Assembly (NCBI GenBank): GCA_963931865.1
Contig: OZ007518.1
Coordinates: 5,225,029 to 5,289,028 of the forward strand
Origin: Axinella damicornis
Lineage: Eukaryota; Porifera; Demospongiae; Axinellida; Axinellidae
Direction: 5' to 3'
DNA: 64,000 bases
Shown: piece by piece, positions 6,014 through 57,471 of the stretch
Numbering within the stretch: position 1 is the stretch's first letter
Layout of the letters: every line of letters begins with the position of its first letter
Translations under genes and position numbers: made by a program
Notes under the pieces: generated by a model
Seen by the model: only the letters and a program-made list of their open reading frames with translations
Told to the model about the DNA's origin: nothing
Database searches by the model: none

Positions 6014-6336
6014 TCAGAAACCTCTTTGGTCTTGAAACTGTTCCTCCAAATTTGTGGCCACTCCAACTCCCCCTATAATTTCAGGATCTCCTCGCAGGGC
6101 TTGACAGAGGGCTTCAAGATATGGATGTCCGTGGTGAAGCCACCTGTTCAGGAGATCCCTCAGGCATGCTGGAGGATTAGTGTTGGCAGGTGTAGCCTGG
6201 ATAGTAGACACATACGATTCCATCCCAAGCTGGTCGGCAAATTCAACCCAGTAAGCAGCAATAGGTTGAATCAATGGTTTCAGGATTTTCATGTCATCAG
6301 GTTTGAGAAGTGTTGCCAGAGTGGTTGTCCTGTTAA
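6014..6336 (-). CDS. Exon 17: death domain and stop (proximal alternative)
   Basis: The acceptor is TTTTCCTGGACTACAG at 6337. The first two bases TT complete the G left by exon 16, giving valine, so the phase fits across the 8 kb intron. It encodes 106 residues to a TGA at 6016-6014. The death-domain pattern is clear: [20 protein letters not shown] (helices 1-2, with the usual W), [20 protein letters not shown] (helices 3-4, second W), then [16 protein letters not shown] and ATNLEEQFQ. The C-terminus is DQRGF. In known proteins such domains bind other death domains. No AATAAA was found close downstream. Confidence 0.82.

Positions 6337-57471: not shown

Follow-up and report, generated by a model that had tools for sequence, protein, structure and literature searches.

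DAPK1-type ROCO proteins carry ankyrin repeats, and ROCO proteins dimerize. In the available excerpt of one account (PMC6337361), the DAPK1-type proteins make up the third ROCO group, in which Roc-COR is combined with a C-terminal Death domain and leucine-rich repeats are missing. For brown algae, the accessible part of another study (PMC11378527) gives LRR-ROC-COR as the only architecture and describes ROCO genes with one repeat per exon, whose 72-bp phase-2 leucine-rich-repeat exons are proposed as a source of recognition diversity, the genes themselves being proposed as diversified receptors. According to the excerpted text of Kaur et al. 2021 (PMC8195603), the TRADD-N proteins of the NCOA6 clade, which have undergone an expansion in the sponge Amphimedon, consist in this order of one to three Death-like domains, a TRADD-N domain, and a variable C-terminus, most commonly made of ankyrin repeats or of SH3 with leucine-rich repeats; Roc-COR is not named among the sponge TRADD-N C-termini in that excerpt. 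Among the open-licence papers listed, no title linked Roc-COR to a CARD or DED protein.

The locus described here lies in the window, i.e., the whole 64,000-nucleotide stretch of the Axinella damicornis genome that was analysed (C14:5225029-5289028; searched genome, 226 Mb in 120 contigs), and appears to encode a known kind of protein with an unusual domain combination in one copy. On balance, we favor a single long gene on the minus strand, of which the window would contain the middle and the 3' end; its first two-thirds would come from a tandemly duplicated family, to which a Roc-COR-Death tail of the ROCO family would have been added in this copy. The comparison with DAPK1 made in a sequence-only reading of this DNA fits that tail; the gene has ankyrin repeats, Roc-COR, a candidate C-terminal Death domain and no leucine-rich repeats, as in the excerpted description of the DAPK1 type. 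It does not extend to the N-terminal two-thirds, a CARD/DED/Death block resembling the proteins of the PMC8195603 excerpt in which tandem Death-like domains and TRADD-N are often accompanied by ankyrin repeats, and a protein kinase domain is absent from the 1668-residue model in a Pfam scan of the part within the window. As in the NCOA6-clade proteins of that excerpt, Death-superfamily domains lie N-terminal to the TRADD-N-like domain, the variable C-terminus bears ankyrin repeats, and the lineage-specific expansion is large (24 CARD-module copies); unlike them, as far as the excerpt describes them, the window gene would combine a pair of DED plus RRM-like dyads (one of them assigned from its layout only) with Death, CARD, one ankyrin repeat per exon, and the Roc-COR-Death tail. 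With the brown-algal genes of the PMC11378527 excerpt it shares repeats encoded one per exon and all in one phase, but these are ankyrin repeats of 99 bp in phase 0. NACHT and LRR are both absent from the 1668-residue model in the Pfam scan, which places it outside the NLRs.

The minus-strand model was rebuilt from exons backed by a profile, by paralogues, or by both. It comprises 19 exons joined by 18 GT-AG junctions, every one of them phase-compatible, and stays open for 1668 codons before its stop. The sixteen phase-compatible junctions and 1743 residues of the sequence-only reading are thus correct in kind only, because the rebuilt model differs from them and starts internally; since its first exon is internal, the protein is longer than 1668 residues. 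The exons, in order of transcription and followed by a second copy of the last one, are:

57946 to 57999, minus strand, linker exon 1 (RDPVVEELEDISKVKDPR), phase 0 to 0, internal, GT-AG, open
57717 to 57762, minus strand, linker exon 2 (PGDFDEGSFPTADFD), phase 0 to 1
56129 to 56455, minus strand, CARD exon, CARD fold, phase 1 to 1
47998 to 48791, minus strand, module exon (the earlier "unnamed module"), DED fold, then TRADD-N-like domain
45780 to 45872, minus strand, first ankyrin-like exon, phase 0 to 0, with a 93% identical stretch in sister gene L052
44662 to 44760, minus strand, ankyrin exon, 99 nt, phase 0
41732 to 41830, minus strand, ankyrin exon, 99 nt, phase 0
31640 to 31738, minus strand, ankyrin exon, 99 nt, phase 0
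28998 to 29096, minus strand, ankyrin exon, 99 nt, phase 0
28192 to 28290, minus strand, ankyrin exon, 99 nt, phase 0
27176 to 27274, minus strand, ankyrin exon, 99 nt, phase 0
23880 to 23978, minus strand, ankyrin exon, 99 nt, phase 0
22703 to 22801, minus strand, ankyrin exon, 99 nt, phase 0
20483 to 20581, minus strand, ankyrin exon, 99 nt, phase 0
18837 to 18912, minus strand, capping ankyrin exon, phase 0 to 1
18031 to 18150, minus strand, acidic linker exon, phase 1 to 1, donor TAA/gtaagc
14523 to 16774, minus strand, Roc-COR GTPase exon, phase 1 to 0, THSD motif
14393 to 14423, minus strand, 31-nt linker exon, phase 0 to 1
6014 to 6336, minus strand, Death-domain terminal exon with the stop, phase 1, Pfam Death E 5.4e-4, 20.5 bits (cut-off 22.6)
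5356 to 5666, minus strand, second Death exon copy, 87% identical to 6014 to 6336

The order of these exons, their phases, their predicted folds and their paralogy are shown by the analysis, and the CARD, ankyrin, Roc-COR and Death names given earlier agree with profile or fold. Death folds at both ends of the protein had also been claimed, correctly but with understatement, as a DED fold is predicted in the module as well, and DED-like and Death exons lie upstream outside the window. Against solved sequences, the CARD profile returned chance rows only, with E 0.2 or worse. In the module, structure prediction gives a DED fold at about residues 27-129 and a beta-alpha-beta-beta-alpha-beta (RRM-like, TRADD-N-like) domain at about residues 166-260, so that the module may be read as a DED plus an RRM-like domain, a reading that would group all members of the family with proteins for which a role as immune switches has been put forward. 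TRADD itself was absent from the structural-comparison rows shown for the module, an absence that excludes nothing, and no Pfam family or sequence relative among solved structures was found for it. The module and the upstream module were rejected as proven homologues (E 0.031, probability 1.6), and because this profile comparison is weak the likeness of the two rests on layout.

The module exon has 27 matches in the genome, which leave 24 full-length copies, the window's included, after three fragmentary matches are set aside. In 24/24 copies a GT donor follows the same codon (AAG in 22, GAG in 2) and the sequences diverge beyond it, on which ground a stop ten codons past the module was rejected as the end of the gene. 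All 24 copies have a CARD exon no more than 12 kb upstream of the module; on that side 22 of them have a DED-like exon at up to 25 kb and 21 a Death exon at up to 30 kb, and the sister genes repeat the arrangement Death, DED-like, CARD, module. The ankyrin cap lies within 60 kb downstream in 16/24, where distances above 30 kb may belong to a neighboring copy. A scored Roc-COR match is found within 60 kb downstream in only one of the 24, that of the window. The counts draw on 24 CARD places (25 matches, two merged), 23 of 142 DED-like, 23 of 150 Death and all 21 cap matches, on 55 of 59 Roc-COR matches (four fragments dropped; 55 of 298 candidates scored) and on 45 of 150 C3-type Death matches; the lists were chosen from the relevant contigs, and because they are partly selected the linkages may be under-counted. 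Relative to sister copies, and with one surplus L043 row of 17 codons in the wrong orientation set aside, dN/dS is 0.10-0.12 for the CARD (7/7 comparisons) and 0.24-0.41 for the module (8/9, the ninth being saturated), values that point to a constrained protein, although such ratios compare copies and do not measure selection on the window copy since the split. Between the CARD and module exons the window carries a (GA)n tract of about 155 units (52331-52641), and the spacing of the two matches is 7.3 kb here vs 0.4-1.2 kb in the 23 other copies. Between its Death and DED-like exons, sister gene A contains long ORFs of the plus strand (L053-L054, C14:1589-1595 kb) that bear helicase-like motifs and are probably a mobile element, and a weaker Death-like stretch (L053 4016-3807, about C14:1587.9-1588.1 kb; 28% identity, E 1.4e-8) stands just upstream of the DED-like exon.

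The start of the gene at 57471, as first read, does not hold. That ATG sits within a dispersed repeat, a 587-bp element at 57017-57603 with 44-bp inverted ends that are 93% complementary, of which 39 other copies with 81-87% identity were recognized among 40 candidates scored out of 395; nothing matching the peptide of the exon was found in the flanking sequences fetched for the sister CARD exons (L037-L043, L053). The exon was accordingly ruled out as exon 1. By contrast, linker exon 1 has a counterpart, a similar peptide (EELENVSKVKDP) upstream of the CARD in L053 and L041 with a shorter match in L038 and L043, and peptides similar to linker exon 2, some of them weakly, occur in L038, L040, L041, L042, L043 and L053. 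Two more exons of the same strand lie beyond the window: one DED-like, at C14:5292317-5293105, with 74% identity to the array copy that served as query, and one Death, at C14:5297037-5297270, with 54% identity. The gene does not begin within the window. The order proposed for the whole, starting outside it, would be Death, DED plus TRADD-N-like, CARD, DED plus TRADD-N-like, about 11 ankyrin repeats, acidic linker, Roc-COR and Death, the first dyad being assigned by layout only.

The ankyrin repeats (Pfam 8.2e-76 for Ank in the model) are largely encoded by nine minus-strand exons of the window, each exactly 99 nt long, in phase 0, with AG/GT ends and one repeat; an identical scan of the plus strand of the window gave zero such exons. 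The fetched stretches of sister genes A, B and C contain 9, 12 and 14 of them, respectively, in runs that resemble duplicated cassettes. Such a one-repeat exon array in a 24-copy family is an animal counterpart, built of ankyrin rather than leucine-rich repeats, of the brown-algal ROCO genes with their shuffled exons. A tenth ankyrin copy in the window, at 44493-44395, has GG instead of the acceptor AG and is a dead exon. The cap, used as query, has 21 matches in the genome, itself included, all on C14. Within the intron that precedes the acidic linker, one copy of a repeat (18217-18606) is 84.7% identical over about 390 bp to another at 59111-59500.

The Roc-COR exon encodes Roc followed by COR, the order that marks a ROCO protein, with both domains below the profile cut-offs (COR-A E 1.5e-7, 31.9 bits, cut-off 35.3; Roc 19.3 bits, cut-off 27); its homologue P0021 gives 40.4 bits for COR-A. 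Against solved sequences only two chance rows were returned (E 0.42 and 0.56). The genome has at least 59 Roc-COR matches including the window's own, and there are 55 protein matches including its own ORF, P0001, COR-A being precomputed in 50 of these (P0001 and 49 of the 54 others). In at least 16 of 55 Roc-COR matches a C3-type Death exon follows on the same strand at a distance of up to 8 kb, against 1/55 with one upstream, and Roc-COR-Death is for that reason regarded as a recurrent tail. In the ANK-Roc-COR-Death gene at C3:20234627 the Roc-COR is 75% identical to the window's, Death occupies the last exon, and the 31-nt exon (L064 46-76) has the same length, ends and phase with a few base differences. 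That gene differs in that a single long exon, of another type, encodes most of its ankyrin repeats, and its Death domain is of a different subtype from the window's (25% identity over 67 columns). Among the seven other closest Roc-COR copies, at least two (C8:10039946 and C8:11063212) are preceded on their own strand, at no more than 5 kb, by a DED-like or Death exon. Proteins P0021-P0026, 40-44% identical to the window Roc-COR, combine NACHT and COR in one predicted chain, and COR is present in the legend key of a figure of sponge NLR architectures in the accessible part of PMC12909245; on these two points, there is some precedent for COR fusions in immune-type proteins of animals of this sort. 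Matches to Roc or Roc-COR cluster densely at C8:0.72-1.90 Mb, several of them in open frames of up to 5245 codons, and at C2:17.42-17.96 Mb.

That all of this forms one gene was claimed from the outset. The claim is plausible, given the phase-matched open model, and unproven, as the 60 kb downstream of 23 of the 24 copies contain no scored Roc-COR match and the three 3' ends that were read stop earlier; we consider a single gene running through Roc-COR and Death more probable than not. Two junctions are without homologue support, namely that from the acidic linker to Roc-COR and that from the 31-nt exon to Death, and the chance that both agree in phase is one in nine (one in three for a single junction). 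We infer these two joins (18031/16774 and that to Death) and the transcription of the locus. A serious though doubtful alternative is that two same-strand neighbors are involved, a Death-DED-CARD-ankyrin gene that ends after the linker and a separate Roc-COR-Death gene whose N-terminal exons were lost or not seen. In its favor, judged from frames only, the acidic linkers of sister genes A, B and C meet a stop within about a dozen codons (one codon past PFEWTE in C, a few later in B, in a shifted frame in A), whereas the window linker has no in-frame stop at that place and reaches a phase-1 donor, the phase in which the Roc-COR exon opens at its acceptor. Since the exon starts at a phase-1 acceptor, a separate Roc-COR gene would need an upstream coding exon, and none was recognized in the 1.3 kb between the linker and Roc-COR. 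The cap, confined to C14, adjoins no other listed Roc-COR; tblastn did not find Roc-COR in the fetched stretches of sister genes B and C; and among the listed proteins the module and Roc-COR occur together apparently on the window's contig only. The low score of the linker donor (71st percentile of GT) also speaks for two genes, with the Roc-COR and Death acceptors at the 80th and 51st percentiles of AG, but the splice matrix is of little use: its training set consisted of ankyrin and module exons of the sister genes, and it scores other junctions low too (78th percentile for the cap donor, 71st for the linker acceptor and 68th for the acceptor of linker exon 2). The presence of the tail in 1/24 copies, in a repeat-rich region, could likewise reflect a misassembly that put Roc-COR-Death behind an ankyrin gene, which is very improbable, the window lying inside one 10.8 Mb contig with zero N.

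If the single-gene reading is correct, the ankyrin array would bind a ligand, the RRM-like domains would be hinges holding the death folds apart and, together with Roc-COR, would keep the molecule closed, and GTP-gated dimerization of Roc-COR would release CARD, DED and Death. The freed death folds would then nucleate homotypic assemblies leading to cell death or an immune response, and the tail would have been gained from the ROCO family of the genome through phase-1 introns. Ligand, GTPase gating and output are what we infer; the switch model of the PMC8195603 excerpt is the source of the hinge idea. We put forward, tentatively, a single chain of Death, DED-TRADD-N, CARD, DED-TRADD-N, ankyrin array of interchangeable one-repeat exons, Roc-COR and Death. 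Such a chain would be a receptor gated by GTP and carrying death folds of three kinds, in which two expanded immune-type families were joined through phase-1 introns and the array diversifies by exon-cassette duplication. Were the join real, it would link death-fold assembly and ROCO GTPase switches in one chain and offer a natural test of GTP gating over death-fold nucleation.

The terminal Death exon lies in phase about 8 kb from the 31-nt exon. Among its paralogues, three of five exceed the Pfam cut-off (L047, L049, L050), L046 falls below it and L051 has no Death match; against solved sequences the window exon gave zero matches. At the acceptor position used by four of six other copies (L046, L049, L050, L051; not L047, L048), the window has no AG, which, like the 8-kb distance, counts against a single gene. 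The second copy, possibly an alternative last exon or a relic, differs from the first with dN/dS 1.16 at dS 0.057, and the Death exon compared with five others gives 0.35-0.71. The Death copies without sign of constraint, the dead ankyrin copy and the repeat insertions could together describe a fused yet decaying gene, one that acquired its tail and, with its insertions, dead exon and changed Death acceptor, is now non-functional or truncated, but every exon of the model is open and the CARD and module ratios against the sister copies make this improbable. A similar pair of Death exons, about 690 bp apart, is found at C8:265753 and C8:266440, and a 37-bp minisatellite of 6.6 copies occupies 7328-7573 of the window.
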